Origin: Alphaproteobacteria bacterium
Lineage (GTDB): Bacteria > Pseudomonadota > Alphaproteobacteria > Micropepsales > Micropepsaceae
Direction of reading: 5' to 3'
Assembly (NCBI GenBank): GCA_016783965.1
Contig: JADHVO010000005.1
Span: forward strand, 62,001-126,000
DNA: 64,000 bases
Of this stretch, positions 7,894 to 47,110 are shown in pieces (the first letter of the stretch is position 1; each line of letters opens with the position of its first letter). The notes beneath the pieces were generated by a model. It did no database searches and was not told where the DNA came from. It saw only the letters and a list, made by a program, of their open reading frames with translations. Both the position numbers and the translations under genes were made by a program.

Positions 7894-9257
7894 AGTTCTG
7901 GCCGCGCACCCTCGGCGTCCAGCTCATCGTGGTAACCGCGGCGGCGGTGCTGCTGTCGAACCTCGCGGTCGCGCTTTATTTCCAACTCGGCAACGATCGG
8001 CTGAACGAGGCCAATTTCGTGGAACGCGCGATCGACCGCGCCGCGGCGACGTCGACAGTGTTGTCCGTCGTGCCGGCGCGGTCGCGCGATGACGCGGCGC
8101 GGAGCATGAACACGGTGGTCTGGTCGTTCCGCTTGCTGCGCGGCAAGCCGGCGATACCGGTGATGACGGACGAGGAGCAGAGACTTGCGACACGCCTGCG
8201 CAATGCGCTGCCGGACGAGAAAGCCGCGCAACCGCTCGCGGTAACCCACCTTTACAACGTGCTTCAACCGGACGCCGGCCGCATGAATCCGCGGCGGCTG
8301 CCGGTGACGGCGCTGCGCTTCCTGGTTCCGGTTGTGCGCGGGACGATGCTGGAGGCGATCTATTACCAGCCCCCGGCGCCAAGTTGGCCGACCGAAGTCA
8401 TGATCGCGGCGATCATGGCCATCATTATCGCGTCCGCCGCGGCCGCATACATCGCGCGCCGCGTGGCGCGGCCGCTCTCGGCGCTGGAACACGCGGCTGC
8501 GATCGCGGCGCGCGGCGGCTCGCCGCCGCATGTGCCTGAAGAGGGCCCGGACGACGTGCGCAACGCCGCCAGGGCTTTCAATGAGATGACGGCGCGCGTC
8601 ACGCGCACGCTGGAAAGCCAGCGGCAGCTCCTGTCGGCGGTCGGCCACGATCTGCGCACGCCGCTCACCGCGATGCGCATCAACCTGGAGTTCATCGAAG
8701 ACAAGGAGCTGCGCGAGCGGCTCGGCGAGAACTTGAACGAGTTGCAGGCGCTCACTGAGTCCGTGTTGTCGGCGGCGCGCGGGGCAGGCGGCGAGAGCAA
8801 GCGGAACATCGATCTCTCGGCGCTCGTCGAGAGCCTGTGCGCCGATCTCGACGATCTCGGCGAGCCGGTGACGTGGCACGCGCACAAGCCGGCGCCCCTC
8901 AAATGCCGGCCGGATGAGATTCGCCGGGCGGTGCGCAATCTGGTGGAGAATGCGGTCGCCTATGGCCGGCGGGCCGAGGTGCAGATCGAGGAGACGCCCG
9001 CGAGCTACGAGATCGTCGTCGAGGACGAAGGCCCGGGCATTCCGGAGGGCGAGCGGGATCACGTGTTCGAACCCTTCGTGCGCCTCGAGACGTCCCGCAA
9101 TACGGAAACCGGCGGCACCGGCCTCGGCCTCACGCTGGTGAAGGCGATCGCGCAGGGCCATGGCGGCGGGGTGACGCTCGAGAACCGGACCGAGGGTGGT
9201 CTGCGGGCGCGCCTCACGCTGCCGCGCGAAGAGATCACCGCGCTCGCGGCGCAGTAG
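7890..9257 (+). CDS. Membrane sensor histidine kinase
   Basis: A 455-residue kinase with a GGAG 5 bases before the ATG. Two membrane helices (about 11-31 and 168-187) bracket a periplasmic sensor of about 135 residues with no recognised fold. HAMP follows (about 188-240), then the dimerisation domain with phospho-acceptor His253 in SAVGHDLRTPLT. The ATPase domain has RNLVENAVAYG (N box), VEDEGPGIP (G1) and GGTGLGLTLVK (G2). EnvZ-like layout. It pairs with the overlapping OmpR-type regulator; its stop is 1 bp from the stop of the convergent xdhC-like gene. Confidence 0.92.
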   Translation: MKFWPRTLGVQLIVVTAAAVLLSNLAVALYFQLGNDRLNEANFVERAIDRAAATSTVLSVVPARSRDDAARSMNTVVWSFRLLRGKPAIPVMTDEEQRLATRLRNALPDEKAAQPLAVTHLYNVLQPDAGRMNPRRLPVTALRFLVPVVRGTMLEAIYYQPPAPSWPTEVMIAAIMAIIIASAAAAYIARRVARPLSALEHAAAIAARGGSPPHVPEEGPDDVRNAARAFNEMTARVTRTLESQRQLLSAVGHDLRTPLTAMRINLEFIEDKELRERLGENLNELQALTESVLSAARGAGGESKRNIDLSALVESLCADLDDLGEPVTWHAHKPAPLKCRPDEIRRAVRNLVENAVAYGRRAEVQIEETPASYEIVVEDEGPGIPEGERDHVFEPFVRLETSRNTETGGTGLGLTLVKAIAQGHGGGVTLENRTEGGLRARLTLPREEITALAAQ

Positions 9258-9258
9258 G

Positions 9259-9945
9259 TCAGGCTTTCACCTTCGCGCCGCGCAGCACCAGCGTCATTTC
9301 GGCGAGGATCGACACGGCGATTTCCGCCGGCGAACGCGCACCGATGTCGAGGCCCGCGGGGCCGTGCATGCGCGCGAGCACGTCCTCGCCGAAGCCTTCT
9401 TGCTTCATCCGAGCCTGCCGCGCAGCCTGGGTCTTCTTCGAGCCCAGCGTACCGATGTAGAAGCAGTCGGATTTCAGTGCGGCGACCAGGCCGGGATCGT
9501 CGATCTTGGGATCATGGCTCAGGAACACGATCGCGCTGCGCTTTCCGAGCGGCTGCTTCGCCAGCGCCTCGTCGGGATAATCGTGGCTGATGTCGGTGCC
9601 TGGGAATCGGGCTGCCGTCGCGAAGGCCGTGCGGGGATCGACAATGCGCACGGCATAACCGGCCTCCTGCGCCATTCGCACGAGAGGTTGGGCGATATGG
9701 ACCGCGCCGACGATCACCAATTCCAGCGGCGGGTTGAACACCGAGAGGAACCAGCTCCGGCCCTCGATCGCCGCGGGGCCGGAGGTGTCGGCACGCGCCG
9801 CACCAGCAGCGGCTTCACCGAGCGGAGACGCGTCGGCGCCCGGCTCAATCAGCACGTCTTCTCCGGTCGCAAGGTCGGTCGCGCGCACGATGGCCCGTCC
9901 TGCGTGCCGCGCGTTGTTGATGGCCTTGAGTGTTTCGATCTTCAC
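9259..9945 (-). CDS. XdhC-like C-terminal (Rossmann) domain protein
   Basis: A 228-residue protein matching the C-terminal NAD-binding-like domain of XdhC/CoxF-type chaperones. Residues 75-110 are the Rossmann start (LELVIVGAVHIAQPLVRMA, then VRIVDPR). FIGTLGS-type (YIGTLGSKKT) and GLDIGARSPAEIAVSILAE segments are diagnostic. XdhC proteins bind molybdenum cofactor and help sulfurate and insert it into xanthine-dehydrogenase-family enzymes. Here the usual N-terminal half is a separate gene immediately upstream (9963-10283), so the chaperone is split in two. Last gene of the cluster. Confidence 0.85.
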   Translation of the reverse strand: MKIETLKAINNARHAGRAIVRATDLATGEDVLIEPGADASPLGEAAAGAARADTSGPAAIEGRSWFLSVFNPPLELVIVGAVHIAQPLVRMAQEAGYAVRIVDPRTAFATAARFPGTDISHDYPDEALAKQPLGKRSAIVFLSHDPKIDDPGLVAALKSDCFYIGTLGSKKTQAARQARMKQEGFGEDVLARMHGPAGLDIGARSPAEIAVSILAEMTLVLRGAKVKA

Positions 9946-9962
9946 GCGTCACCCGCGGGATG

Positions 9963-10283
9963 TCAGTGCACCGGTTCGACGAATATCTCGACACGGCCGC
10001 CGCAGGCGAGACCGACGGACCAGGCGGTCTCGTCGCTGACGCCGAATTCGAGCGTGCGGACCTTGCCGTCGGCCATGGCGGCGATCGCTTCCTCGATCAC
10101 AGCGCCCTCGATGCATCCGCCGGACACCGAACCCACGAACGCGCCGTCGTCGCGCACCGCGATCTGGCTGCCCGCCTGACGCGGCGCCGAGCCCCAGGTC
10201 TTGATCACCGTGCCGAGCGCCACCTTGCGGCCGTCACCGAGCCACTGCGACGCGGTGTCGAGGACGTCAGTCTCCCCACTCAT
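9963..10283 (-). CDS. XdhC/CoxI N-terminal domain protein
   Basis: A 106-residue protein equal to the XdhC_CoxI N-terminal domain. The hallmark SVSGGCIEGAV (about 50-60) contains the conserved Cys, preceded by GSAPRQAGSQ. It partners the separate Rossmann-domain gene 17 bp downstream; the two halves are fused in E. coli-type XdhC. Its start overlaps the end of the FAD-subunit gene by 4 bp. Role: molybdenum cofactor handling for a hydroxylase of the xanthine/CO dehydrogenase family. Confidence 0.88.
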   Translation of the reverse strand: MSGETDVLDTASQWLGDGRKVALGTVIKTWGSAPRQAGSQIAVRDDGAFVGSVSGGCIEGAVIEEAIAAMADGKVRTLEFGVSDETAWSVGLACGGRVEIFVEPVH

Positions 10284-11080
10284 GCCGCTTCGGCGACGGC
10301 GCGCTTGGCCATCACCGTCACGAGGTGCGCGCGATACTCCGCCGAGCCGTGGATGTCTGAGTTCATGCCGTCAGCCCCGACCTTGATGTTCGCGACGGCG
10401 TCGGGCGTGAAGTTCTTCGCGAGCGCCGCTTCCATCTCCGGCACGCGGAAGACGCAGGGCGCCGCGCCGGTAACGGCCACGCGCACGCCGTTCTTCGTCC
10501 GGGCGGCGAACACGCCGACCATCGCGTAACGCGACGCCGGGTTGGGGAATTTCTTGTAGGCCGCCTTCTCCGGAATCGGGAAGGAGATTTCGGTGACGAT
10601 CTCGTTCTCCTCCAGCGCGGTCGAGAACATGCCGGTGAAGAAATCGTCCGCCGCGATGGACCGTCGGTTGGTTTTGACCGTGGCGCCGAGCGCGAGCACC
10701 GCCGACGGATAGTCGGCCGCCGGATCGTTGTTCGCGACAGAGCCGCCGATCGTGCCCTTGTGGCGCACTGCCGGATCGCCGATGAGCGAGGCGAGATGGG
10801 CCAGCGCCGGGATGGCCTTCGCGACGTCCGCGGAGGTCGCGACCTCCCAATGCGTCGTGGCGGCGCCGATCGCCACAGCGCCGTTCGCGACGCGGATGTA
10901 GTCGAGCTCCTTGATGCCGGAGATGTCGATCAGCTCTGGCGGATTGGCGAGGCGCATCTTCATCGCCGCGATCAGCGTCTGGCCGCCAGACAGAAGCTTC
11001 CCTTCTGGCGCGGCCTTCAGCATCGCTTCGGCTTCGGCAATGGATTTCGCGCGGCGATAGGTGAAGGGGTAGGTGATCAT
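10280..11080 (-). CDS. coxM: CoxM-like FAD-binding subunit of a molybdenum hydroxylase
   Basis: A 266-residue FAD-binding medium subunit as in CO dehydrogenase and xanthine dehydrogenase. The FAD motifs are visible: [13 protein letters not shown] (about 30-42) and [15 protein letters not shown] (about 112-126). It passes electrons from the 2Fe-2S subunit to an acceptor. The start is the ATG at 11080, which overlaps the stop of the coxS-like gene by 4 bp; a longer upstream frame is only a shadow of coxS. The name is a family name: without the large subunit the true substrate (CO, aldehyde, purine or other) is unknown. Confidence 0.88.
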
Positions 11081-11562
11081 GCCACCTTCTCCGCAGCGCC
11101 GGCGATGCGCTTGGACGCGTCCTCGATCGCCGAGACGATGTTCACGTAGCCGGTGCAGCGGCAGATGTTGCCTTCTAGCTCGTGCCGAATGGTCTCGCGG
11201 TCCATCACGCCCTTGCGGCGGATCATGTCGACAGCGGTCATGATCATGCCCGGCGTGCAGAAGCCGCACTGGAGCCCGTGGTTGTCGCGGAAAGCTTCCT
11301 GCACCGGATGCAGCTTGCCATCCTTTGCGAGGCCCTCGATGGTGGTAACCTTCGCGCCCTCCGCCTGCACGGCGAACATGGTGCACGACTTCACCGCCTT
11401 GCCGTTCACATGCACGACGCAGGCGCCGCACTGGCTGGTATCACAGCCGATATGCGTGCCGGTGAGGCGCATGTTCTCGCGCAGGAAATAAACAAGCAGC
11501 GTGCGGTCCTCGACATCGAGCGAGACCGGCTTCTCGTTCACCGTCATCGACACAACGGTCAT
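11077..11562 (-). CDS. coxS: CoxS-like 2Fe-2S subunit of a molybdenum hydroxylase
   Basis: A 161-residue small subunit with two [2Fe-2S] clusters. The plant-ferredoxin-type cluster uses Cys40, Cys45, Cys48 ([10 protein letters not shown]) and Cys60. The second, helical cluster uses Cys99/Cys102 (QCGFC) and Cys134/Cys136 (ICRCTGY). The start chosen is the ATG at 11562 with GGGGAT upstream; an ATG five codons later is also possible. It is first in the order small-medium-XdhC. No coxL-type catalytic subunit lies upstream, where a tautomerase gene and coxG are found instead. Confidence 0.9.
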
Positions 11563-11660
11563 CCAAATCCCCGAATGAATAGCGAGCGCCAAGTGTCCGA
11601 CTACCGGCAACCTGCGTCAAGCGCGCTATAATCCTGCCGATTTGAGGGGAGATTGGCACC

Positions 11661-11975
11661 ATGCCGTTCGTGATCGCGCACATCGCCCGCGGCCGTCCGC
11701 TGGACAAGCGCCGCCGCCTGGCCGCCGCAATCACCGCCGCGGTGTCGGAAATCTTCGAGCTCGATCCGGCTCAGACCCAGGTGCTGATCCAGGAGCACGA
11801 CCGTGACAGTTGGGCGATCGGCGGCGAGCTGCTCAGTGAGCGGGTCACCACCAGGAAGAGCGATGATCTTCCCGATCTCGATTCGCTGTTCCGGAAGCTG
11901 CCCGAAAGGCCCACTGCGAAGGCGCCGGCTAAGAGCGCGCAAAAGCGAAAAGCAAAACCGCGATCACGGCGATGA
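11661..11975 (+). CDS. 4-oxalocrotonate tautomerase-family protein with basic tail
   Basis: A 104-residue protein with Pro directly after the start Met (MPFVIAHI), the catalytic N-terminal proline of the tautomerase superfamily. The helix KRRRLAAAITAAVSEIF and strand VLIQEHDRDSWAIGG fit the single beta-alpha-beta unit of about 62 residues. The last 25 residues (AKAPAKSAQKRKAKPRSRR) are an Ala/Lys/Arg tail not usual in the family. GAGGGGAGA lies before the ATG. Its final 47 bp overlap the convergent coxG gene, and the basic tail is encoded exactly there. Substrate unknown. Confidence 0.78.
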   Translation: MPFVIAHIARGRPLDKRRRLAAAITAAVSEIFELDPAQTQVLIQEHDRDSWAIGGELLSERVTTRKSDDLPDLDSLFRKLPERPTAKAPAKSAQKRKAKPRSRR

Positions 11976-12594
11976 GGCCCGCGACCCACACGAAGGGCGA
12001 AAGGCCGGTGCGCGCCATCGGCGCGCCGGGCGCAGCGGCGACGATCTCGGCCGTGGCATGCGGCTCACCGGTGACGCCGGCGGCAGCCAGGGGGGCGCTC
12101 GCGGCCATCACTTCCTCGGTCGTCGGATCGGGCGACAGGTCGGGCGCAGCCGGCGGCGGCGCCACTACCGCGCTGAAGCGCTTGAAGAAGTCATCGGCGA
12201 TCTGGCGCGCCGCGCCGTCGACGAGGCGCTGGCCGATCTGAGCCAGCTTGCCGCCGACCGTGGCCTTCGCAATATAGGTGAGAACGGTACTGTGGCCCTC
12301 AGGTGTTAGCGTCACGTCCGCGCCGCCTCTTGCGAAGCCTGCGACGCCGCCCTGGCCCTCGCCGGTCAGTTTCACGCTGTGCGGCTCGTTCATGTCGGAG
12401 AGGGCGATCTTGCCCCTGAAGGTGGCGCTCACAGGCCCGATCTTGATTCTTGCCGTAGCGACAAATTCGCTGGCCGAGGTGCGTTCAAGTGCTTCGCACC
12501 CGGGAATGCAGGCCTTGAGGACCTCCGGATCGTAAATTGCGTCCCAGACTTTTTGCGGCGGCGCGGCAATGACATAGCGCCCGGTGAAATCCAT
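11929..12594 (-). CDS. coxG: CoxG-like SRPBCC protein with C-terminal membrane anchor
   Basis: A 221-residue protein starting at the ATG at 12594 (MDFTGRYVI). The first 145 residues are the CoxG/SRPBCC fold (PPQKVWDAIYDPEVL, CIPGCE, VSATFRGKI). A Pro/Ala-rich linker (about 150-195) leads to one C-terminal membrane helix (FVWVAGLIAVIAVLLFAFA). In CO dehydrogenase operons CoxG tethers the enzyme to the membrane and is linked to quinone reduction. The gene is on the same strand as coxSM but separated from them by the opposite-strand tautomerase gene. Confidence 0.85.
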   Translation of the reverse strand: MDFTGRYVIAAPPQKVWDAIYDPEVLKACIPGCEALERTSASEFVATARIKIGPVSATFRGKIALSDMNEPHSVKLTGEGQGGVAGFARGGADVTLTPEGHSTVLTYIAKATVGGKLAQIGQRLVDGAARQIADDFFKRFSAVVAPPPAAPDLSPDPTTEEVMAASAPLAAAGVTGEPHATAEIVAAAPGAPMARTGLSPFVWVAGLIAVIAVLLFAFARS

Positions 12595-35372: not shown

Positions 35373-37061
35373 ATGAGCTGGACCAACAATTTCACCATCC
35401 GCACCAAGGTTATCGCTGCATTTGCGTTCGTACTGCTTGTCACCGCCGTGCTCGGCGTGTTCGCCGTGACGCGGCTGTCCAAGGTGGACGACGGCGCCGA
35501 AGATGTCACTAGCAACTGGCTCGTCGCGACACGCGCGCTCGGCGACTTTTCGACCGCGGCCGTGCGTTTCCGTCAGGTCGAGGCGTCCGTCGCGCTGGCG
35601 CCTAACGAGGAGGCGATGCAGCACGAGGACGAGCACCTGACGCAGGATGTGCTGCCGGAAGTAAAGGCGGCACTGGCGCAATATGAGCCAACGATTACGC
35701 CCGGCGAGGAGCGCGAGCGCTACACCCTCGTGATGGCGAAGTGGAACGCCTATTTCGCGATGACCGACGACTACATGAACCTGGCGCGCAGCGACCGGGC
35801 CAAGGCCGGCGCCCTCTACATCGGCGCCATGAAGATGACCTTCAACGACTTCCAGGGTGAATTGAAGGCGCTCATCAAGTTCCAACTCGACGGCGCGAAT
35901 GCCGAGCGTGACAGCATCCGCGCCACCTATTCGCTTGCTTGGGACATGATCGCCGGGCTCCTGGCGCTGGCGGCGCTGATGTGCGTGGCCGCGGGCTATT
36001 TCCTTGTGTCGAGCGTTTCGCGGCCGATCAAGGCGATGACGGACGCGATGGGCCGCCTCGCCAGGCACGACCTCTCGACGGTCATCGACGGCATCGGCCG
36101 CAAGGACGAAGTCGGCCAGATGGCCTCGGCGGTCCAGGTGTTCAAGGACAGCATGATCGAGGGTGACCGGCTGAAGGCTGAGCAGGAGGCGGCGCAGCGG
36201 AAGCAGCAGGAGCGTTCGGCGCGTCTCGACCAGATCACCAAGGCGTTCGAGACCAGCGTCGGCAGCGTTGTGCAGACGGTGGCGAGCCAGGCGACGCAGA
36301 TGGAGGGGTCGGCCCAGTCGATGAGTGCGACGGCCGAGGAGACCACCAAGCAGGCTGCTGCCGTGGCTGCCGCGTCGGAGCAGAGCTCGGCCAACGTGCA
36401 GACGGTGGCGTCGGCGACGGAAGAGCTGTCGTCGTCGATCTCGGAGATCGGCCGCCAGGTCACCCATTCGAGCCACATCACAGCCAGCGCCGTGGCCGAA
36501 GCCAACCGCGCCAACGAAATGGTGCAGGGCCTGGTCTCGGCGTCGTCGAAGATCGGTGAGATCGTCGCGCTCATCAACGATATCGCCGACCAGACCAACC
36601 TTCTCGCTCTCAACGCCACGATCGAGGCGGCACGTGCCGGCGAGGCGGGCAAGGGCTTCGCGGTCGTGGCGGCCGAGGTCAAGAACCTCGCCACCCAGAC
36701 GGCCAAGGCGACCGACGACATCCGAGTGCAGATCACCGGCGTGCAGTCGGCGACGCAGGATGCCGTCAAGGCGATCGAGACGATCGGCAAGACGATCGGC
36801 GAGGTCAATCAGATCGCGACGACCATTGCCGTCGCCGTCGAAGAGCAGGGCGCTGCCACCAAGGAGATCGCACGCAATGTCGAGGAAGCTGCCAAGGGTA
36901 CGCAGGAAGTCTCCTCGAACATTGGCGGCGTGACGCAGGCGGCGAACGATACGGGCTCTGTCGCAGGCCAGGTGCTGGGCGCCGCGCGCTCGCTCACCGG
37001 CCAGTCGGGCCACCTGAAGGACCTCGTGCAGACGTTCCTCGCGGACGTGAAAGCAGCCTGA
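35373..37061 (+). CDS. mcp: Methyl-accepting chemotaxis protein
   Basis: A 562-residue receptor starting at the ATG at 35373 with ACGGAG upstream. One membrane helix near residues 12-31, a four-helix-bundle-like periplasmic sensor (about 32-190), a second helix (about 195-215), then HAMP (SVSRPIKAMTDAMGRL). The cytoplasmic signalling tip is intact: VALINDIADQTNLLALNATIEAARAGEAGKGF is split over about 395-427, including the CheA/CheW contact residues. No C-terminal NWETF-like pentapeptide. It is first in the che operon and may be the dedicated receptor of this array. Ligand unknown. Confidence 0.93.
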   Translation: MSWTNNFTIRTKVIAAFAFVLLVTAVLGVFAVTRLSKVDDGAEDVTSNWLVATRALGDFSTAAVRFRQVEASVALAPNEEAMQHEDEHLTQDVLPEVKAALAQYEPTITPGEERERYTLVMAKWNAYFAMTDDYMNLARSDRAKAGALYIGAMKMTFNDFQGELKALIKFQLDGANAERDSIRATYSLAWDMIAGLLALAALMCVAAGYFLVSSVSRPIKAMTDAMGRLARHDLSTVIDGIGRKDEVGQMASAVQVFKDSMIEGDRLKAEQEAAQRKQQERSARLDQITKAFETSVGSVVQTVASQATQMEGSAQSMSATAEETTKQAAAVAAASEQSSANVQTVASATEELSSSISEIGRQVTHSSHITASAVAEANRANEMVQGLVSASSKIGEIVALINDIADQTNLLALNATIEAARAGEAGKGFAVVAAEVKNLATQTAKATDDIRVQITGVQSATQDAVKAIETIGKTIGEVNQIATTIAVAVEEQGAATKEIARNVEEAAKGTQEVSSNIGGVTQAANDTGSVAGQVLGAARSLTGQSGHLKDLVQTFLADVKAA

Positions 37062-37167: not shown

Positions 37168-37641
37168 ATGTTGCAGACAGCCCAAACCGCAGCCGTCGCC
37201 CGGCATGAGGCGAGCACACAGTCCTTCGTGACCTTCGAGGTCGCCGGCCAGTTGTTCGGCGTGCCGGTCATGAAGGTGCAGGACATCCTGACGCCGGATG
37301 CGATCGCGCCGGTGCCCGGCGGTCCTGCCGAAGTGCGCGGCCTGATCAACCTTCGCGGCCGCATCGTGACCGTGATCGACCTGCGCAAGCGGCTCGGTCT
37401 TCGCTACGAAGGCGAGCGCAAGGGGATGTGCGTGACGGTCGAGAACGAAGGCGAGAGCTACACGCTTTTCGTCGACGGTGTCGGCGACGTCGTCACGCTC
37501 CAGTCGGACGCGCGCGAAGACAGCCCGACGACGCTCGATCCGCTCTGGAAAGAGCTCAGCGATGGCGTGTTCCGCGTCGACGGCCGCCTTCTCCTCATTC
37601 TGGATGTCGGGCGTCTGCTCGCCATCCGCAGCAAGCAGTAA
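37168..37641 (+). CDS. cheW: Chemotaxis coupling protein CheW
   Basis: A 157-residue CheW that links receptors to CheA. The fold's segments are FEVAGQLFGVPVMKVQDIL, PGGPAEVRGLINLRGRIVTVIDLRK (split here over residues about 50-75), and VDGVGDVVTL. AAGAGGGACGG precedes the ATG. It is 12 bp before cheA. Length and motifs are normal, and the first 20 residues are a short Ala-rich extension. Confidence 0.95.
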   Translation: MLQTAQTAAVARHEASTQSFVTFEVAGQLFGVPVMKVQDILTPDAIAPVPGGPAEVRGLINLRGRIVTVIDLRKRLGLRYEGERKGMCVTVENEGESYTLFVDGVGDVVTLQSDAREDSPTTLDPLWKELSDGVFRVDGRLLLILDVGRLLAIRSKQ

Positions 37642-37653
37642 GGGGAGACGTCG

Positions 37654-40329
37654 ATGGACGATCTGCTGCAGGAATTCCTGACCGAAACCAACGAAAGCCT
37701 CGCCACGCTCGACGTCGAGCTGGTGCGGTTCGAGCGCGAGCCGAGGGATGCGAAAATCCTCGGCAACATCTTCCGCCTGATGCACACCATCAAGGGCACG
37801 TGCGGCTTCCTCGGATTGCCGCGGCTGGAGTCGGTCGCGCATGCCGGCGAGAACGTGCTGGGCAAGTTCCGCGACGGCGAGCTTGAGGTCACGCCGGGCG
37901 CGGTGACGCTGATTCTCAAGGCCATCGACCGCATCCGCCAGATCCTGGGTGCGATGGAGCAGACCGGTGCCGAGCCCGAAGGCGACGACAGCGCTTTGAA
38001 GGCCGAGTTGAACGCCATGGCCGCAGGCGAAGCGGCGCCGCAAGCCGCTGCCGAGCCCGAGGCGCAACCCGCTTTCCAGTCCCCGTCGCTCGACGACGAG
38101 GGCGGCTTCCCGGTCGCCGCGGAGCTGCTCGCCGAGATCGCCGAGGCGCTCGACAAGGATCCGTCGCTCGCGACTCCCGCGCCGGCCGTACCCGAGGCGA
38201 AGAAGGCCGAGACGCCGAAAGCCGCCGTGGCTGAGGCCGCACCCCCTTCCGCGGCCGGCGAGTCTTCGGCCGCGCAGTCCTCGATCCGCGTCAATGTCGA
38301 CGTGATCGAGAACCTGATGACGCTGATCAGCGAACTGGTGCTGACCCGCAACCAGCTTCTCCAGCTCCAGCGCGTGCAGAAGGGCAACGAGTTCAAGGTT
38401 CCGCTCCAGCGCCTGTCGCACATCACCTCCGACCTCCAGGACGGCGTGACGCGAATGCGCATGCAGCCCATCGGTAATGCCTGGGCGAAGCTGCCGCGCA
38501 TCGTCCGCGACCTCGCGGTGGAAACCAAAAAGCGCATCGAGCTTGTCATGCTCGGCGCCGACACCGAGCTCGACCGCCAGGTGCTCGAGATCATCAAGGA
38601 CCCGCTGACGCACATGGTGCGCAACTCGGCGGATCACGGGATCGAGTCCGTGGCCGACCGCCTCGCCGCCGGCAAGCCGGAAGCGGGCACGATCACGCTC
38701 AAGGCCTATCACGAGAGCGGCCACATATTCATCCGCATCTCCGACGACGGCAAAGGCCTGAACGTCGAGGCGATCCGCCGCAAGGCTATCGCCAGCGGCC
38801 TGGTCACCGAGCCCGAGCTTGCGACCATGAGCGAGCAGCAGATCATCCAGTTCATCTTCCGCGCCGGCTTCTCGACCGCGGAGAAGGTGACGAGCGTGTC
38901 CGGCCGCGGCGTCGGCATGGACGTGGTGCGCACCAATATCGAGCGCATCGGCGGCGCGATCGAAATGTCGTCGGTCGCGGGGCAGGGCACGACCTTCCTG
39001 ATCAAGATCCCGCTGACCCTTGCCATCGTCTCGGCGCTGATCGTCGAGGCGTCCGGCCAGCGGTTCGCGATCCCGCAGATCAACGTCACCGAATTGGTCG
39101 GCGTGTCGGACCGCTCGGAAGTCTCGATCCAGCGCATCAACACCGCGCCGGTCCTGCGCCTGCGCGACCGGCTGTTGCCGCTGGTGTCGCTGCGGGGCCT
39201 GCTGAACGTCGCGGAGGATGAAGAGAAGGCCGCGCGCACGACGAACTACGTCGTGGTGGCACAGGTTGGATCGGCCAAGTTCGGTATCATCGTCGACCGC
39301 GTGTTCGACACCGAGGAAATCGTGGTCAAGCCGGTGGCGCCAATCCTGCGTGGCACGCCGTTCTATGCCGGCAACACCATCCTTGGCGACGGCAGCGTCA
39401 TCCTGATCCTGGATCCGAACGGCATCGCGCAGGCGGCCAAGCAACAGACCGCCGACGACGGGCGCGCCGACGTTCACGCCAATGCGCAGGACGCGATCAA
39501 GGACGAGACCTCGTTCCTGCTGTTCAGCACGCGCGGCAACGAACTCAAGGCCGTTCCGCTGGAACTGGTCGCGCGCCTAGAGGATCTCGACGCGACGAGC
39601 ATCGAGCACGTCGGTGGCCGTCATGTCGTGCAGTACCGCGACCATCTCATGCCGCTGGTCCCGTTCGACGACCTCCACGAGTGGCCGACATCCGGCAAGC
39701 AGGCGGTGCTGGTCTTCAGCGACCACGGCCGCAGCATGGGCCTCGCCGTCGACGAGGTGGTCGACATCGTCCGCGACCGCATGGCGATCGAGCTCTCCAG
39801 CGAACGCACCGGTGTCCTGGGTAGCGCGATCATCGCAGGCAAGGCGACCGATATCGTCAACATCGGGCACTACCTGACGCTGGCGTTCTCCAACTGGTTC
39901 GACGGCGCCATCGAAGCGCAGTTTACCGCCCAGCGCCGTGCGCTGGTAGTGGACGACAGCGCCTTCTTCCGCAACCTCATTGTGCCGCAGCTCCGCGCCG
40001 CGAAGTGGAACGTCACCAGCGCCGTCAACGGTGCCGACGCGCTGCGGATCATGGAAGCGGAGAAGCCGTTCGACATCGTGATCTCCGATATCGAGATGCC
40101 GGAAATGGGCGGCCTGGACTTCGCGCAGGCGGTGCGCCGCGACTCGCGTTTCCAGGCCCTGCCGATGATCGCGCTGTCGAGCCACGCCAACGCCGATGAC
40201 GTGGAGCAGGGCCGGGCGGCCGGCTTCAACGATTACCTGTCGAAGGCCGATCAGCCGCGCCTGGCCGAGAACCTCGCCCGCGCGATGGAGGCGGCGAGCC
40301 ACGGACGGCAGTGGAGGAACGCGTCATGA
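37654..40329 (+). CDS. cheA: Hybrid chemotaxis kinase CheA with two CheW-like domains and receiver
   Basis: An 891-residue kinase. Order: Hpt (1-105, phospho-acceptor His44 in MHTIKGTCGF); Ala/Pro-rich linker (106-208) with no P2 CheY-binding domain; dimerisation (209-270); ATPase (about 270-455, HMVRNSADHG N box, SDDGKGL G1, GRGVGMDVV G2); CheW-like regulatory domain (about 455-600); a second CheW-like domain (about 617-745, TSFLLFSTRGNELKAVPLE); and a receiver (761-880) with D767/D768, phospho-acceptor Asp812 and Lys864. The receiver could act as an internal phosphate sink. GGGGAG precedes the ATG; its stop overlaps the next gene by 4 bp. Confidence 0.95.
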   Translation: MDDLLQEFLTETNESLATLDVELVRFEREPRDAKILGNIFRLMHTIKGTCGFLGLPRLESVAHAGENVLGKFRDGELEVTPGAVTLILKAIDRIRQILGAMEQTGAEPEGDDSALKAELNAMAAGEAAPQAAAEPEAQPAFQSPSLDDEGGFPVAAELLAEIAEALDKDPSLATPAPAVPEAKKAETPKAAVAEAAPPSAAGESSAAQSSIRVNVDVIENLMTLISELVLTRNQLLQLQRVQKGNEFKVPLQRLSHITSDLQDGVTRMRMQPIGNAWAKLPRIVRDLAVETKKRIELVMLGADTELDRQVLEIIKDPLTHMVRNSADHGIESVADRLAAGKPEAGTITLKAYHESGHIFIRISDDGKGLNVEAIRRKAIASGLVTEPELATMSEQQIIQFIFRAGFSTAEKVTSVSGRGVGMDVVRTNIERIGGAIEMSSVAGQGTTFLIKIPLTLAIVSALIVEASGQRFAIPQINVTELVGVSDRSEVSIQRINTAPVLRLRDRLLPLVSLRGLLNVAEDEEKAARTTNYVVVAQVGSAKFGIIVDRVFDTEEIVVKPVAPILRGTPFYAGNTILGDGSVILILDPNGIAQAAKQQTADDGRADVHANAQDAIKDETSFLLFSTRGNELKAVPLELVARLEDLDATSIEHVGGRHVVQYRDHLMPLVPFDDLHEWPTSGKQAVLVFSDHGRSMGLAVDEVVDIVRDRMAIELSSERTGVLGSAIIAGKATDIVNIGHYLTLAFSNWFDGAIEAQFTAQRRALVVDDSAFFRNLIVPQLRAAKWNVTSAVNGADALRIMEAEKPFDIVISDIEMPEMGGLDFAQAVRRDSRFQALPMIALSSHANADDVEQGRAAGFNDYLSKADQPRLAENLARAMEAASHGRQWRNAS

Positions 40330-40757
40330 CGTCGATCTACAAGGCGGACACCATGTTCGGCGACGACTCCGAAGAGACCGTGAGCGAGGCGCCGAAGTTC
40401 TGCCTGATCGTTGATGACTCCTCGACGATAAGGAAGTTCAGCGCGCGGCTCCTGACCAGCATGAACTTCATCGTGGGCGAGGCCGAACACGGCCTCGCCG
40501 CAGTCGAAGCATGTCGCCTGGTGGTGCCCGACCTGGTCCTGCTCGACTGGAACATGCCCGAAATGAACGGGCTTGAGTGCCTGAAAGCGCTGCGTGCCAT
40601 GGATCTGAAGCCGCGCCCTGCGATCGTGATGTGCACGACCGAGAACGTCCTGCCCAAGATCACCGAAGCGCTGGCTGCGGGCGCCGACGAGTACATCATG
40701 AAGCCCTTCGACCGCGATGTGCTGCGCGACAAGCTCGCACAGCTGGAGCTGGTCTGA
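40326..40757 (+). CDS. cheY: CheY-like single-domain response regulator
   Basis: A 143-residue receiver starting at the ATG at 40326, overlapping the cheA stop by 4 bp. A 27-residue N-terminal extension precedes the receiver (LIVDDSSTIRKF). Phospho-acceptor Asp is in LLDWNMPEMNG, and Lys in IMKPFDR is intact. One of two cheY genes in the operon; the other is at 42757-43146. Which one drives the flagellar motor and which is a phosphate sink cannot be told. Confidence 0.92.
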   Translation: MTSIYKADTMFGDDSEETVSEAPKFCLIVDDSSTIRKFSARLLTSMNFIVGEAEHGLAAVEACRLVVPDLVLLDWNMPEMNGLECLKALRAMDLKPRPAIVMCTTENVLPKITEALAAGADEYIMKPFDRDVLRDKLAQLELV

Positions 40758-40760
40758 TCC

Positions 40761-41879
40761 ATGGCGGCCGCGGTGACCCTCCCCCAGCGTAGTACGAACG
40801 CCGTCGGCGTGATGGTGGTGGACGACTCCGCCGTCGTGCGCGGCTACATCGTGCGCCTGCTGGAGCAGGAACCCGGCATCGAGGTCGTGGCGACCTGCGC
40901 GAACGGCCAGATCGCGGTGCAGCAGGCGGCGCGCACCCCGCCGGACGTCATCATCCTCGACGTCGAGATGCCGGTGATGGAGGGCCTGACCGCGGTGCCA
41001 AAACTGCTGGCGGCGTGCCCGGGCACCAAGATCATCATGGCCTCGACGCTCACCCAGCGGAACGCGACCGTGAGCATCGAGGCGCTGGCCAAGGGCGCGA
41101 CAGACTACATCCCGAAGCCCTCGACGGCCGGCATCAGCACAAACAACGATTTCCGCCGCGAGCTGATCGAGAAGGTCACCGGTCTCGGCAAGCGCGTATC
41201 GCGCAGGCCGGTCGCTCCGGCGCCCGCCGGCACGCCCGCGAGGATCCAGGAGAAGGCGGCGCCGGTCGTGCGCCTTCGTCAGGCGTCGCCGGCGGCCAGG
41301 CCGCAGGCGCTGGTGATCGGCAGCTCCACGGGCGGGCCGCAGGCACTGATCACGCTGCTCGGCAAGCTGCCGCGCGAGATCAACGTGCCCGTGATGATCG
41401 CGCAGCACATGCCGGCCACCTTCACCGCGATCCTGGCGCAGCACATCGGGCGCGCTTCCGGTCGGCCGTGTGCCGAGGCGGTGAACAATGTCGAGCTGAA
41501 GGCCGGTTCGATCTATCTCGCGCCTGGCGACTGGCATTTCGAGATCGCGCGCGAAGGCACCGCCGCGGTGGCGCGCCTCGACCAGGCGCCGCCGGAGAAT
41601 TTCTGCCGTCCGTCCGTCAACCCGCTGTTCCGTTCCGCCGCCCGCTTCTGGGGCGGCGATGTCTGCGCGGTGATGCTCACCGGCATGGGGAGCGATGGCA
41701 TGGACGGAACGCGCATGCTGGCCGCGGCCGGCGCGCCGGTCATCGCCCAGGACGAGGCAACCAGCGTGGTGTGGGGCATGCCGGGCGCGGTCGCAACCGC
41801 CGGCCTGTGCACCGCCGTGCTGCCGCTGAACGAGATCGCCGCGCACCTCTCTAACGTCTTCGCAGGAGCGCGCCGGTGA
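40761..41879 (+). CDS. cheB: Chemotaxis response regulator methylesterase CheB
   Basis: A 372-residue protein: receiver (about 16-135, VVDDSAVVRG, LDVEMPVMEG, Lys in YIPKPS) and C-terminal methylesterase (about 180-368). The catalytic Ser is in IGSSTGGP, His in AQHMPATFT and Asp in TGMGSDGMDG. It removes methyl groups from receptor glutamates to adapt the pathway. The stop overlaps the cheR start by 4 bp (GTGA). Confidence 0.96.
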   Translation: MAAAVTLPQRSTNAVGVMVVDDSAVVRGYIVRLLEQEPGIEVVATCANGQIAVQQAARTPPDVIILDVEMPVMEGLTAVPKLLAACPGTKIIMASTLTQRNATVSIEALAKGATDYIPKPSTAGISTNNDFRRELIEKVTGLGKRVSRRPVAPAPAGTPARIQEKAAPVVRLRQASPAARPQALVIGSSTGGPQALITLLGKLPREINVPVMIAQHMPATFTAILAQHIGRASGRPCAEAVNNVELKAGSIYLAPGDWHFEIAREGTAAVARLDQAPPENFCRPSVNPLFRSAARFWGGDVCAVMLTGMGSDGMDGTRMLAAAGAPVIAQDEATSVVWGMPGAVATAGLCTAVLPLNEIAAHLSNVFAGARR

Positions 41880-42745
41880 TCCCGTCCAATTTCGAGTTCA
41901 TGGCCGCGCTGCTGAAGGAGAAGTCCGGGCTTATCATAACGGCCGACAAGATCTACCTGCTCGACGCGCGGCTCTCGCCGATCGCACGCAAACACAACCT
42001 CGCCGGCCTCGACGCCCTGGTGATGGCGATGCGCGCGCCGCTGGCGACCGCGCTTGTGAACGAGGTCGTCGATGCGATGACCACCAACGAGACGTCCTTT
42101 TTCCGCGACAAGACGCCATTCGATGCGCTGAAGAATTCGCTGATCCCGGGCCTCGTCGCACGCCGCGCGGCGCAGAGGTCGATCCGCATCTGGAGTGCCG
42201 CGTGCTCGACCGGCCAGGAGCCGTACTCGCTCGTGATGATGCTGCGCGACCAGTTCCCGGCGCTGAAGGACTGGCGCATCGAGATCGTCGCTACCGATCT
42301 GTCGCCGACCGTGCTTCAGCGCGCCCGCGACGGCGTCTTCACGCCTTTCGAGGTCCAGCGCGGGCTGCCGATCCAGATGCTGGTCCGGCACTTCGACCAG
42401 GTCGAACAGAACTGGCAGATCAAGCCCGATCTGCGCCGCATGATCGATTTCCGGCCGCTCAACCTGCTGAGCGACATCTCTGCGCTCGGCAAGTTCGACA
42501 TCATCCTGTGCCGCAACGTGCTGATCTATTTCGATCAGCTGACCAAGGGCACGGTGCTGTCCCGCATGGCGCGCATGCTGCCCGCGGACGGCGCGCTGAT
42601 CCTGGGCGGCGCCGAGTCCGTGTTCGGCATCTGCGACGCACTGGGGGACGTGCCCGGCCTGCGCGGCGTGTACGGCCCGGCCCCTGGAATGAAAACGGTG
42701 CAGCGGCCCGAATTTCAGCAGCAACAAGTTCTTATCGCGTCCTAA
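41876..42745 (+). CDS. cheR: Chemotaxis protein methyltransferase CheR
   Basis: A 289-residue SAM-dependent methyltransferase with a GTG start at 41876 overlapping cheB. The N-terminal helical domain carries TTNETSFFRD, and the SAM site is WSAACSTGQEPYSL. ATDLSPTVLQRA and DIILCRNVLIYF are further CheR signatures. It methylates receptor glutamates, opposing CheB. Confidence 0.96.
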   Translation: MIPSNFEFMAALLKEKSGLIITADKIYLLDARLSPIARKHNLAGLDALVMAMRAPLATALVNEVVDAMTTNETSFFRDKTPFDALKNSLIPGLVARRAAQRSIRIWSAACSTGQEPYSLVMMLRDQFPALKDWRIEIVATDLSPTVLQRARDGVFTPFEVQRGLPIQMLVRHFDQVEQNWQIKPDLRRMIDFRPLNLLSDISALGKFDIILCRNVLIYFDQLTKGTVLSRMARMLPADGALILGGAESVFGICDALGDVPGLRGVYGPAPGMKTVQRPEFQQQQVLIAS

Positions 42746-42756
42746 GGAGAACCCTG

Positions 42757-43146
42757 ATGAGCCTCGACAAGAAAATGCGAATCCTGATCGTCGACGATTA
42801 CGCGACGATGCTGCGCATCCTGCGCAACCTGCTCCGCCAGCTCGAGATGGAGAACGTCGACGAGGCCGCCAACGGCGAGGAAGCGCTCTTCAAGCTGCGC
42901 AAGTCGCCTTACGATCTGGTGATTTCCGACTGGAACATGCAGCCGATGACCGGCATCGAGCTGCTGCGCAATGTCCGCGCAGACGCGAAGTTGCGCGCGC
43001 TGCCGTTCATCATGGTGACGGCGGAAAGCAAGACAGAGAACGTGATCGTCGCGAAGCAGGCGGGCGTCTCGAACTACATCGTCAAGCCCTTCAATGCGGA
43101 AACACTCAAGATGAAGATCGCGAGTGTGTTCAAGGTGGCGGTCTGA
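42757..43146 (+). CDS. cheY: Chemotaxis response regulator CheY
   Basis: A 129-residue receiver starting at the ATG at 42757 with AAGGAGA upstream. ILIVDDYATM (acidic pair), VISDWNMQPM (phospho-acceptor Asp), MVTAES (switch Thr) and YIVKPFN (Lys) are all intact and close to E. coli CheY. It sits directly before the cheZ-like gene, so it is the best candidate for the motor-binding CheY that this phosphatase acts on. Confidence 0.94.
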   Translation: MSLDKKMRILIVDDYATMLRILRNLLRQLEMENVDEAANGEEALFKLRKSPYDLVISDWNMQPMTGIELLRNVRADAKLRALPFIMVTAESKTENVIVAKQAGVSNYIVKPFNAETLKMKIASVFKVAV

Positions 43147-43150
43147 CACC

Positions 43151-43735
43151 ATGCTGCACGAACCACCGCCCGGAACGGGCCAGCCGATCGAGCTCGGCAA
43201 CGCACACTCGTATCTGAACCGCGTGATCGCGGAATTGCAGTCGCTCCGCACCGAGAAGAAGCACCCGCTGCTCAACGTCCTGCAATACCTGTCGGACCAC
43301 ATCCGGCAGACCCGCCAGGAACTGGGCGCGCTGCGCACCAGGGACGGCAACCCGCTGCTGGGTTCGGCCGCCGACGAACTCGAGGAGGTCGTCGCCGAGA
43401 CCGCGCGCGCCGCCAATGAGATCATGGGTGCTGCCGAGGCAATCGAAGCGCTGATGCCGCAGGTCGAGAAGGACGTCTCTGCCGCGCTGCTGAACGCGGT
43501 GACGCGGATCTACGAGGCTAGCGCCTTCCAGGACATCACCGGCCAGCGCATCACCAAGATCATCCGCGCCGTTCAGGATATCGAAGAGAAGATCGGTACG
43601 CTGGCACAGGCCTGTGGCGACGGCGAAATCGCCGGTGGCGATCCCGTCGGCGATGCCGCGCTGCTCAACGGTCCGCAGCTGGGCAAGACAGCGGCGACAC
43701 AGGACGACATCGACGCCCTGTTCGACTCGGTCTGA
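43151..43735 (+). CDS. cheZ: CheZ-like CheY-phosphate phosphatase
   Basis: A 194-residue all-helical protein. The catalytic CheZ motif is present as ASAFQDITGQRITKI (123-137): Asp128 and Gln132 match Asp143 and Gln147 of E. coli CheZ in DFQDLTGQ. The C-terminal helix TQDDIDALFDSV (183-194) matches the CheY-binding tail of CheZ, set off by a flexible Gly-rich linker (156-180). Two long helices (about 17-60 and 75-150) would form the dimer hairpin. The gene is 4 bp after cheY. It probably speeds loss of phosphate from CheY. Confidence 0.88.
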   Translation: MLHEPPPGTGQPIELGNAHSYLNRVIAELQSLRTEKKHPLLNVLQYLSDHIRQTRQELGALRTRDGNPLLGSAADELEEVVAETARAANEIMGAAEAIEALMPQVEKDVSAALLNAVTRIYEASAFQDITGQRITKIIRAVQDIEEKIGTLAQACGDGEIAGGDPVGDAALLNGPQLGKTAATQDDIDALFDSV

Positions 43736-43737
43736 CG

Positions 43738-44805
43738 ATGAACGCACTCGCGCCGGCACCGGATGCAGCAGAAGCGGTCGACATCATTTCAGATGCCGAC
43801 CGCGACGCGCTGCACATCCTGCCGCTCGCGACGATTCCGATCGCGCACCCGGTGCTGCGGCGCACCAAGCTGGTGAAGAACTCGCGGCTCGATTCCGCCG
43901 TGGAATTCTTCAACACGGCCGGCGGCGGCAGCGGCCAATTCGAGGTGCTGGAGATCTCCAAGCTGCTCGGCCTGCCGAACGGCGCCGCCGATCCGGACAT
44001 CGGGCTCTTGCAGCGCGTCGCGGTGCTGCCCAGCTACGACGTGTACAGCCTGCGCATTTTGCTCAGGGAAATGAAGATCCCGATCGCCGACGAGTCGGTG
44101 CTGAAGCTGTCGCCGGCCAAGATCGCCTCGCTTAGCACGTACATGGCATCTTTTACGCGCCCGCTGGTAGTCGAGATTTTCGGCGAAAACACCATGGTCG
44201 GCGACTTCACCAACCTGGTGAGCATGTTCCGCGATTGCAGCGCCGAGCAGGTGCGCGTGCGGCTCGCGACGATGGCGGAGAAGCTGGGCATTCCCGTGCC
44301 GGCAATCCCGAAATTCCTCGAAGACTACGCCGACATCTTCATGTCGCTGTCCTACTACAAGCAGTGCCTCGACCAGCTCCTGCCCGGTGTGCAGAGCTTC
44401 CTGATCACGCTGAAGGATATCCGCAGCAATCATCAGTTGCGCAGCGACGTCAACCTGATGAGGACCTGCGATTTCACGGAAAACGTGATCAACGGCACGC
44501 TGGCCAACATCACCGGCCGGCTCGAGAGCTTCAACAAGAGCACCGCCGACATGTGGCGCAACCTCTCGGCCGAACGCTTCCGGAGGATCGAGGAACTCAT
44601 TTTGAGCTACCACACGGTGATCGGCGGTGTGCTGTGCGCGCTCAGCGTCAAGACCAATGCCTGGGTCCGGAATTTTCCCCGCCCGGAGGCGGCCGGCCCG
44701 GTGCGGCGCGCCGCCTTCATCATGTCCGACATGCGGCAGGGCATCGACCGTATCAGCGCCATCGAGGACGCGCGACCCGTACTTTCCGAATTGAACGACG
44801 ACTAG
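43738..44805 (+). CDS. Unrecognised protein of the chemotaxis operon
   Basis: A 355-residue soluble protein that starts 2 bp after the cheZ-like stop. I do not recognise it. Prediction by eye gives mostly alpha-helix with no signal peptide or membrane helix. Features: an N-terminal segment ILPLATIPIAHPVLRRTKLVKN, a middle YMASFTRPLVVEIFGENTMVGDF, a Tyr/Phe-rich SLSYYKQCLDQLLPGVQSFL, and a C-terminal helix pair (NITGRLESFNKSTADMWRN, IEELILSYHTVIGGVLCALSVKTNAWV). No receiver, HAMP, Hpt or nucleotide-binding motif is seen. Tight spacing suggests it is part of the signalling pathway. Confidence 0.85.
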   Translation: MNALAPAPDAAEAVDIISDADRDALHILPLATIPIAHPVLRRTKLVKNSRLDSAVEFFNTAGGGSGQFEVLEISKLLGLPNGAADPDIGLLQRVAVLPSYDVYSLRILLREMKIPIADESVLKLSPAKIASLSTYMASFTRPLVVEIFGENTMVGDFTNLVSMFRDCSAEQVRVRLATMAEKLGIPVPAIPKFLEDYADIFMSLSYYKQCLDQLLPGVQSFLITLKDIRSNHQLRSDVNLMRTCDFTENVINGTLANITGRLESFNKSTADMWRNLSAERFRRIEELILSYHTVIGGVLCALSVKTNAWVRNFPRPEAAGPVRRAAFIMSDMRQGIDRISAIEDARPVLSELNDD

Positions 44806-44825: not shown

Positions 44826-46409
44826 ATGATGGCTGCCGGAGGGATGATGACGGACCGCGCGAACGCACCGGAAGACACGGCCGATCGGCGCAGCTTGGCC
44901 GACGTCGCAGTCGCCGTCGCCGCGGCGCTGTTGGCCGCCACGCTCTTCTATGTCGACAGCTCGGAGCCGCGCGGCATTGTCGACGGAATCGGTTATCCAG
45001 CCGTGGTGGCGCTGAGTGCGCGCTTCGGGCGTAGCCCTATGCTGGGCACGGCGTTCTTCTGCTCCTTGCTCGGTATCGTCGCGCATTTCGTACTGCCGCC
45101 GGGCGGCGTCGGCGAAAGCGGTGAGCTCGCCAACCGTGCCTTTGGCCTCGCCGCCATCTGGATAGTTGCCGCCGTGCTGTTGCGGCGGCTGCGGGTCGAA
45201 GAAGCGGTGGCCGAACGCACGGCGATCTTGCGCCGCGATCAGTCCATCCTGGCGCGCATCGTCCGCGAAGGCCTTGTGGCAGAGAAGCCGTTTCTCGAAC
45301 GCATCCGGTGCGTGACCGAGATCTCATCCGAGGCGCTGGAGGCGGATCTCACCGTCGTATTCCGTTTCGCAGAGAATGGAAAATTGACGACCTGTATCGA
45401 CGCCTACCAGGCAAGCACCGGCAAGCATTTCGCGTTGATGGATATCAGGACCGAAGACACGCCGACCTATGATGGTCTGATCCGCAACAACTATACGGTC
45501 GCGGTTTCGGATATGCACCGGACCGGCGCCTTCGGGGCGCGGTTGCTGATGGTGAATACGCTCGATATCCGCGCATCGCTTAACATCGGCATCCTGTCCG
45601 GTTCGGAACTCGCGGGACAGATCGCCTATGCCAGGATCGGGCAGCCACACGACTGGACGGAGCAGGAGATCGCCTTCGCCAGATCGGTCGGAAACCTGCT
45701 CACCATCATGTTCGCGGGCGAGGAGCGCGAGCAGCTCCAGGAGCGGCTCCGGCAGGCGGTGCGGCTGGAGGCGATCGGCCAGTTGGCAGGCAGTGTGGCG
45801 CACGACTTCAACAACATCCTTGGCGCCATCCTGGGTTTCGCCGGATTTCTCGTGCAGGACCTGCCGGCGGACGGAGAACCGCACGTGTTCGCGTCCCGCA
45901 TCATGGCTGCCGCCGAGCGCGGCAAGGCGCAGGTCAACAAGGTGCTGTCGCTTGCGCGGGGCAAGGACCCTGACCTGCCACCGTTGGCAGCTGCCGCCGC
46001 GGCGGCAGGGCGCGAAGCGCCCAAGGGCGGCGAGCGGGTCCTTGTGGTCGATGACGAGCCCGACATACTTGATGCCATGGTGATCGGGCTGGAGCGGCTG
46101 GGCTACAGTCCGGTCGGTGTCAGCGATCCGCACGAGGCCCTTGCCGCGTTCGGGGAGGATCCGCAGGCGTTGGATATCGTCGTTACTGACCTCGTGATGC
46201 CGTCGCTCCGGGGTTCCGAGTTGATCCGGCGGATCAAGGCCATTCGGCCGGATATCTGCGCGATTCTCTGCACGGCCTATAGCGACGGAGCCAAAACGGG
46301 TAATGAACACGTCGACGGGGCGGACGCGTCCTTTCACAAGCCGGTGAATGCCGCCGCGATCTCCGCGTGCATTCAGGAACTTGTGCGCCGTACCGGCACA
46401 AAGCCTTAG
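44826..46409 (+). CDS. Membrane GAF-DHp-receiver protein lacking a kinase ATPase domain
   Basis: A 527-residue protein. Three hydrophobic segments (about 26-44, 55-92, 104-120) form an N-terminal membrane part. A GAF-like domain follows (about 155-297), then a histidine-kinase dimerisation domain with His326 in SVAHDFNNILGAILGF. Normally about 120 residues of ATPase domain would come next, but only a 22-residue Ala-rich linker (380-402) separates it from a receiver (404-520; DD at 409-410, phospho-acceptor Asp455, Lys505). The frame is continuous, so this is a clean deletion or a design, not a frameshift. The start may be 44826, 44844 or 44847; the only good Shine-Dalgarno abuts the later two. 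Confidence 0.82.
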   Translation: MMAAGGMMTDRANAPEDTADRRSLADVAVAVAAALLAATLFYVDSSEPRGIVDGIGYPAVVALSARFGRSPMLGTAFFCSLLGIVAHFVLPPGGVGESGELANRAFGLAAIWIVAAVLLRRLRVEEAVAERTAILRRDQSILARIVREGLVAEKPFLERIRCVTEISSEALEADLTVVFRFAENGKLTTCIDAYQASTGKHFALMDIRTEDTPTYDGLIRNNYTVAVSDMHRTGAFGARLLMVNTLDIRASLNIGILSGSELAGQIAYARIGQPHDWTEQEIAFARSVGNLLTIMFAGEEREQLQERLRQAVRLEAIGQLAGSVAHDFNNILGAILGFAGFLVQDLPADGEPHVFASRIMAAAERGKAQVNKVLSLARGKDPDLPPLAAAAAAAGREAPKGGERVLVVDDEPDILDAMVIGLERLGYSPVGVSDPHEALAAFGEDPQALDIVVTDLVMPSLRGSELIRRIKAIRPDICAILCTAYSDGAKTGNEHVDGADASFHKPVNAAAISACIQELVRRTGTKP

Positions 46410-46474: not shown

Positions 46475-47110
46475 ATGAAAATCCTCGTGGCGGACGATCA
46501 TCCGCTTTATCGCGAGGCTGTCACCACCCAACTACACCGGCTCTATCCCGAGTCCGCTGTGGACGAGGTGGGTACGTACGATGAGATTGTGTCGGCCGCG
46601 AAGCACACCACGGAACCCTTCGATCTCTTCCTCGTGGACTTCCACATGCCCGGCATGATGGAGCAGGGCATCGCGAGCCTGGCCGGTGCGTTCCCCGATA
46701 CTCCCATCGCCGTGATTTCGGGCACGGCCAACAGCGAAGACGTGCGCGCCTCGATCCGTGCAGGTGCAAGGGGGTTTGTTTCCAAGACGGCAACCGCCGA
46801 TCATCTGGCGCACACCATTCAGCTCGTGCTGTCGGGCGGCACCAGCGTCCCGGCCGACATGCTCTCCGCGCCGGACATCCCATACAAGGCGCATTCGACG
46901 CCGCAGCCCGACTGGCTCGGGCGGCTGTCGCCGCGCGAGCGCGAAGTGCTGACCGCCGTGGCGCGCGGCATCTCCAACAAGCAGATCGGGCGCGAGCTCA
47001 ATCTGGCCGAGGTGACCGTCAAGCTCCATCTGCGGTCGATCTTCCGCAAGACCGGCGCCAAGACGCGGTCGGAATGCGCGGTGCTGGCGACGAAGGCGGG
47101 CCTTGGCTGA
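46475..47110 (+). CDS. NarL/LuxR-family response regulator
   Basis: A 211-residue regulator starting at the ATG at 46475 (MKILVADDHP). Receiver: acidic pair DD at 7-8, phospho-acceptor Asp in FLVDFHMPG, Lys in FVSKTA. The C-terminal LuxR helix-turn-helix is LSPREREVLTAVARG with NKQIGRELNLAEVTVKLHLRSIFRKTG-type recognition helix (split for length). It is downstream of the GAF-DHp-receiver protein and may be its output, or the last gene of the chemotaxis operon. Confidence 0.9.
   Translation: MKILVADDHPLYREAVTTQLHRLYPESAVDEVGTYDEIVSAAKHTTEPFDLFLVDFHMPGMMEQGIASLAGAFPDTPIAVISGTANSEDVRASIRAGARGFVSKTATADHLAHTIQLVLSGGTSVPADMLSAPDIPYKAHSTPQPDWLGRLSPREREVLTAVARGISNKQIGRELNLAEVTVKLHLRSIFRKTGAKTRSECAVLATKAGLG

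Follow-up and report, generated by a model that had tools for sequence, protein, structure and literature searches.

The window analysed here, a 64,000-nucleotide stretch of the genome of an Alphaproteobacteria bacterium (Micropepsaceae; contig JADHVO010000005.1, positions 62,001 to 126,000), carries an open reading frame (ORF) at 43738-44805 on the + strand that starts with ATG and encodes a protein of 355 amino acids. We call this protein X. Judged from its sequence, X belongs to a conserved, mainly alphaproteobacterial family that is undescribed in the libraries we searched, and it adds a new family to a familiar kind of system, the chemotaxis operon, where its role is one that we infer. 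Within the genus of the window, every genome with X also has CheZ, and the two genes stand paired in distant branches of the X family, whether by retention or by separate origin. Our preferred reading, held tentatively and short of even confidence, is that X has an accessory part in chemotaxis, as a cytoplasmic protein that acts with CheZ and CheY~P where the pathway delivers its output.

X is a coding gene directly behind cheZ

X is the ninth gene of the order MCP-cheW-cheA-cheY-cheB-cheR-cheY-cheZ-X, in which MCP is a methyl-accepting chemotaxis protein. It is not the final gene, as a histidine-kinase-like gene that can start 20 bp downstream and then a LuxR-type regulator follow, all on the + strand (Table 1). 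The TGA stop codon of cheZ ends at 43735 and is followed by CG and then by the ATG of X, so the 2-bp gap and the 355 residues given in the initial annotation of this DNA are borne out. The G+C content of X at the three codon positions is 0.59/0.41/0.87, and the differences between X and its homologue in genome G035 are distributed over those positions as 105/76/153 (352 codons compared); because of this composition and this substitution pattern we regard X as a real coding gene. Its neighbour, previously called cheZ-like, is a genuine CheZ with a PF04344 match (E 1.1e-12) and the active-site stretch DITGQ. Just ahead of the latter, ASAFQ fits the AXXFQ motif given in PMC7750401.

The expectation that X is soluble agrees with its highest Kyte-Doolittle 19-mer mean of 1.58, which is located in a predicted helix. 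"All-helical", as X had also been described, is largely but not wholly right. An AlphaFold2 model built with 22 homologues (mean pLDDT 81, pTM 0.79) is mostly helical, with long helices at residues 187-344, but these are preceded by four short N-terminal strands (27-29, 44-47, 53-60 and 64-69). Foldseek searches of the PDB returned no match at E<=0.001, whether the query was the whole model or a separate model of the N-terminal part. With VIA-align the best row for the whole model has Z 9.2 and a root-mean-square deviation (rmsd) of 3.8 over 149 residues, and that for the N-terminal part has Z 3.0 and rmsd 4.1 over 75 residues; both are values that VIA-align assigns to a common arrangement. 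A missing PDB match is not proof of a new fold.

A family undescribed in the searched libraries

The earlier statement that X has no known signalling domain is matched by searches of Pfam, NCBIfam and PHROGs with the window protein, which returned 0 families at E<=1. The X proteins of loci L017 and L010 had a best E of 0.012 against Pfam, under the curated cut-off, and the 22 members of our alignment A1 a best E of 0.022 against NCBIfam, at chance level. Among PDB sequences, neither X nor A1 as query gave more than chance-level matches. A phage origin was considered and rejected, there being no match among phage records or PHROGs. No paper naming such a protein was found in the open-access literature searched by title and start of abstract, where an unnamed protein makes a weak query, and the portion of PMC12826043 available to us holds nothing on X.

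A search for close relatives recovered 17 in GTDB contigs, at 40-63% identity. In a class-wide sample 42/385 genomes match X, 37 of them at E<1e-50 and the other five weakly and distantly. A sample of the phylum gave four matches in 200 genomes, three from the same class (one weak) and one, in G583 (57% complete), strong and from outside it; phyla other than the host's were covered solely by the GTDB-contig search. Eleven Azospirillum plasmids also carry a copy; Azospirillum lipoferum 4B is a culturable, motile carrier that may have more than one. One X (L015:7019-8068) lies on a contig titled Candidatus Marinimicrobia and groups with a Rhodospirillaceae row (support 100/98); this contig is probably mislabelled or misbinned.

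When profiles are compared, X connects with a distant group of proteins (hhalign probability 97.8, E 1.1e-12). The core of this superfamily is PS[YLF]D[VP][YF]xL[RK] plus K47 and D87, and the window protein fits it. Conserved stretches of X lie at residues 97-106 and 191-206. D87 and D101 are present in 62/62 X rows and 8/8 distant rows, K47 in 62/62 and 7/8, and R106 in 62/62, with R or K at that position in 8/8 distant rows. Two tandem members of the distant group, of 369 and 411 amino acids, are encoded on contig C11 of the window's own genome (L110:7417-8526 and 8590-9825); they have no Pfam match and stand in an 18-kb stretch in which no che or fla gene of the reference set was recognised.

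Linkage of X to cheZ and other chemotaxis genes

Across loci, che genes were named by tblastn against annotated reference proteins, a procedure that misses distant relatives, and some of the contigs are short. On this basis X lies directly behind cheZ in 11 genomes: that of the window, G016 (placed by match coordinates only), G035 (the same contig as L016, counted once), L003-L008, L014 and G163. The two genes are separated by 2 bp in the window, 3 bp in L003-L006, 24 bp in L007, 21 bp in L014 and 60 bp in G163, and they overlap by 4 bp in L008 and L016. Such distances suggest translational coupling.

Our tree of the X family has 62 rows; it does not include L013, a second X in each of L009, L011 and L013, or the copies in G067, G099, G250, G305 and G330. 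Ten of these 11 genomes with cheZ-X fall in two of its groups. One is the seven-row group of the window (98/93) and the other a six-row group (97/87) with L007, L008 and L014, whose L010, L015 and L019 show no cheZ. The eleventh, G163 (L083 among our loci), lies beyond the deepest split of the tree; cheZ and X are the only genes recognised in its 19-kb stretch, with no other che gene of the reference set. Elsewhere X lies near different chemotaxis genes. In G414 X is followed by cheW-cheY-cheR, in G042 it comes after cheB-cheR with about 0.7 kb between, in G142 a GAF-MCP gene adjoins it, and in G413 and G385 MCP matches lie at most about 1.2 kb away.

Absence of the family from the searched libraries and linkage to cheZ in more than one branch support the initial annotation in its view of X as a candidate undescribed component, be it a CheZ regulator, a scaffold or a localisation factor. 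No confident match to a known non-chemotaxis family was obtained, and a neighbourhood with che genes is conserved in more than one branch. The tight coupling to cheY and cheZ on which that view was built holds insofar as cheZ-X recurs in more than one branch; it fails in Azospirillum flagellin operons and in two congeners, G020 and G024, that have cheZ without X.

Co-occurrence of X with CheZ

Among the 37 genomes of the window's genus, X is present in three, CheZ in five and FlhA in 26. All three X carriers are among the five with CheZ, and none of the 32 genomes without CheZ has X. The hypergeometric p for this overlap is 0.0013 over the 37 genomes and 0.0038 over the 26 FlhA genomes, values uncorrected for relatedness, as are those of the family comparison below; all three genus copies of X lie in the che operon. 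We also compared families, taking one genome each for 138 families, 18 with X and 120 without. CheB is present in 17/18 X families versus 51/120 others, which makes X carriers almost always chemotactic, FliG in 17/18 versus 66/120 and CheZ in 15/18 versus 39/120. Of 39 X carriers searched for CheW, 35 have a match, and the four without one are G140, G230, G330 and G408; 17 X-negative genomes were also tested for CheW and, having been picked by hand (12 CheB-negative, 5 congeners), were not used as a control.

Several observations weigh against tying X to CheZ alone. The window group and the group of L007, L008 and L014 sit inside one 16-row fork of the X tree (81/90), and the linkage in both may therefore be one inherited event. 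X does not always neighbour cheZ, a point that the initial annotation had marked for checking: 11/62 tree rows do and 51/62 do not, and in most no che or fla gene was recognised nearby. The distant paralogues are not linked to che genes in the annotated loci we opened. X is found in only 31/147 CheZ-positive genomes of the sample, and the co-occurrence with CheZ, strong overall, loses significance among CheB-positive families, where the CheZ excess is 15/17 versus 35/51 (p 0.10); requiring CheB and FliG together gives 15/16 versus 32/44 (p 0.08). Two X carriers also count against a strict chemotaxis role, since G140 has X and FliG with no CheZ, CheB or CheW match, and G230 has X with no FliG, FlhA, CheZ or CheW match.

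The two congeners with cheZ and no X belong with these points. G024 keeps the whole order from MCP to cheZ, with no X in the 538 bp left to the contig end; in G020 cheZ is the only such gene on its contig, and more than 4 kb downstream is without X. Neither whole genome has a match to the window protein, used as a single-protein query and not as a family profile. A tree of CheA, CheB and CheR with 12 rows, of which two come from one genome, puts G024 between G016 and the remaining rows (supports 86 and 96); because of this position and the window-group X of G016 the simplest reading is that G024 has lost X. Both cheZ and the operon can thus persist without X.

Proposed role and alternative explanations

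If X is an accessory protein at the output end of the pathway, it would be made in step with CheZ through coupled translation and would bind CheZ, the CheY~P-CheZ complex or the switch complex. It might thereby set where or how strongly CheZ dephosphorylates CheY, and the rate of reversals would be tuned through X. An X encoded in a flagellin operon would serve the flagellar system concerned in the same way. X would be a dispensable add-on, as some species keep cheZ without it.

The alternative that survives best, though we still judge it unlikely, is that X is a flagellar factor, acting in assembly, flagellin control or the motor, that stands behind cheZ since both serve the flagellum. The two Azospirillum plasmid copies that we opened speak for this and against a role tied to CheZ alone, as they follow a flagellin-flaF-flbT-hypothetical-DUF1217 series with no annotated che gene in the stretch read. 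G140, with FliG and no CheZ, CheB or CheW match, fits it as well, as does the presence of FliG in 33/37 strong X carriers; of the four without a FliG match, G221 has FlhA. Near the distant relative L104, at about 2.5 kb, stands an ORF that resembles flagellin by eye. However, 21 of the 26 FlhA-positive congeners have no CheZ match and all 21 also have no X match, so that having a flagellum does not by itself entail X; and a strictly flagellar role is at odds with G348, in which X, CheZ and CheW occur without a FliG or FlhA match.

It is rather improbable, to a degree beyond the flagellar explanation, that X is a general soluble adaptor from a larger superfamily outside motility and that it came to lie beside che genes by chance, as operons grew locally. 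Distant paralogues joined to X by profile comparison are found in unrelated neighbourhoods, no che or fla gene was recognised beside most X genes, and G230 has X without a FliG, FlhA, CheZ or CheW match. Such an accident is harder to reconcile with linkage in well-separated branches, to different che partners, or with the frequencies of CheW among X carriers and of CheB among X families given above.

An additional CheY-phosphate phosphatase or phosphotransfer protein, suggested by the site beside cheY-cheZ, the long helices and H292, a largely conserved residue within a predicted helix, is very improbable, as A1 has no conserved DxxxQ or ExxN column pattern, 50 of the 62 rows have H at position 292 and eight have Q, and there is no Pfam match. 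X is not itself a CheZ, as it lacks a PF04344 match and a conserved DxxxQ in A1. CheC, CheX and FliY phosphatases have a conserved ExxN motif; the window protein has one at E56-N59, of which the N is not conserved in A1, and with 0 Pfam families this identity was rejected too. The stretch YHxxIGGxLCAL resembles by eye the histidine site of a histidine phosphotransfer (HPt) domain, an idea rejected because H292 is not invariant.

X as a candidate partner of CheZ

The placement of CheZ in Alphaproteobacteria is a published question, and X makes it testable. According to PMC7750401, alphaproteobacterial CheZ has no CheA-binding sites, CheZ of Azorhizobium caulinodans reaches the poles without CheA, a ChePep homologue was not found there and other partners of CheZ are suspected. 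X is a concrete candidate for such a partner in the lineages that carry it, in some of which it is encoded beside cheZ. It cannot be a general answer, because it is present in 31/147 CheZ-positive genomes. The literature on Azorhizobium, ChePep and CheO makes a CheZ partner such as X plausible by analogy. A bolder proposal, which we consider doubtful, is that X may be the missing CheZ partner in a set of Alphaproteobacteria, a new superfamily and possibly a new fold that would place CheZ at the pole or set its activity as a convergent counterpart of ChePep and CheO. Whichever role it has, a study of X would give a first function to a superfamily undescribed in the searched libraries.

The likeness of X to ChePep, CheO and the archaeal DUF439 and HEAT-repeat proteins would be one of working alike; we claim no kinship. 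The archaeal DUF439 proteins carry the name CheF. Like X they are unrecognised proteins in che gene regions. In Halobacterium, Che and flagellar proteins are interaction partners of two DUF439 proteins and of a HEAT-repeat protein, and switching is abolished when the HEAT-repeat protein or one DUF439 protein is deleted (PMC2666748). DUF439 is reported there as archaea-specific, whereas the window protein has no Pfam match. ChePep of Campylobacterota, compared here by description, resembles X as an auxiliary protein tied to CheZ and limited to one bacterial group. It positions CheZ in Helicobacter and is needed for its polar localisation, as stated in PMC7750401 and PMC11237671; X, in turn, adjoins cheZ in the window and, where searched, is found almost only in Alphaproteobacteria. 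CheO of Campylobacter jejuni, again compared by description, is like X cytoplasmic, without known domain and confined to one phylum, and it binds CheA, CheZ, FliM and FliY in Campylobacter (PMC9665402). X is likewise often unlinked, and it differs in directly following cheZ in the window. CheZ itself shares with X solubility, the operon and long helices (for CheZ, PMC7750401), and differs from it in the PF04344 match and the conserved DxxxQ.

Table 1 Features of the chemotaxis operon and of X, in window coordinates
Feature	Position	Strand	Basis
Methyl-accepting chemotaxis protein	35373..37061	+	MCPsignal, 4HB_MCP_1, HAMP
cheW	37168..37641	+	PF01584 match at G000:C12:99225-99623
cheA, hybrid, C-terminal receiver	37654..40329	+	Hpt, H-kinase_dim, HATPase_c, CheW (2 stretches), Response_reg
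First cheY of operon	40326..40757	+	Start codon inferred
cheB	40761..41879	+	PF01339 match at G000:C12:103313-103849
cheR	41876..42745	+	Homology to an annotated CheR
Second cheY of operon	42757..43146	+	Named by reading and by homologues in place at other loci; start codon inferred
cheZ	43151..43735	+	PF04344 E 1.1e-12; DITGQ active-site stretch; start codon inferred
X	43738..44805	+	ORF, coding evidence
X N-terminal part, residues 1-152	43738..44193	+	Beta strands and conserved LPSYDVYSLR (residues 97-106)
X C-terminal long helices, residues 187-344	44296..44769	+	AlphaFold2 model
Histidine-kinase-like gene after X	44826..46409	+	GAF, HisKA, receiver domains; start codon inferred
LuxR-type response regulator	46475..47110	+	Response_reg, GerE; start codon inferred

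Neighbouring genes

No HATPase_c match was obtained for the histidine-kinase-like gene downstream of X, although its L016 homologue (9683-12049) has HATPase_c between the other domains; by its domain matches the window gene is a putative kinase without its catalytic domain. Two cheZ-X operons hold a second unrecognised family between cheR and the second cheY (L008:583-1701 and L014:4407-5567), without a Pfam match, whose profile finds matches in 24/80 chosen genomes and none in that of the window. A relationship of this protein to X was not shown (hhalign probability 1, E 0.055), and the same applies to the distant group. In the same two operons a PilZ-domain gene directly follows X (L008:3863-4333 and L014:7662-8219), which hints at a link to cyclic di-GMP (c-di-GMP). 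Two tandem X genes occur in L009 and L011-L013, with a DUF2336-type gene about 4 kb off, and in L017 and L018 a DUF2336-type gene adjoins X convergently; the DUF2336-type identity is confirmed by Pfam for L012 and L017 only.
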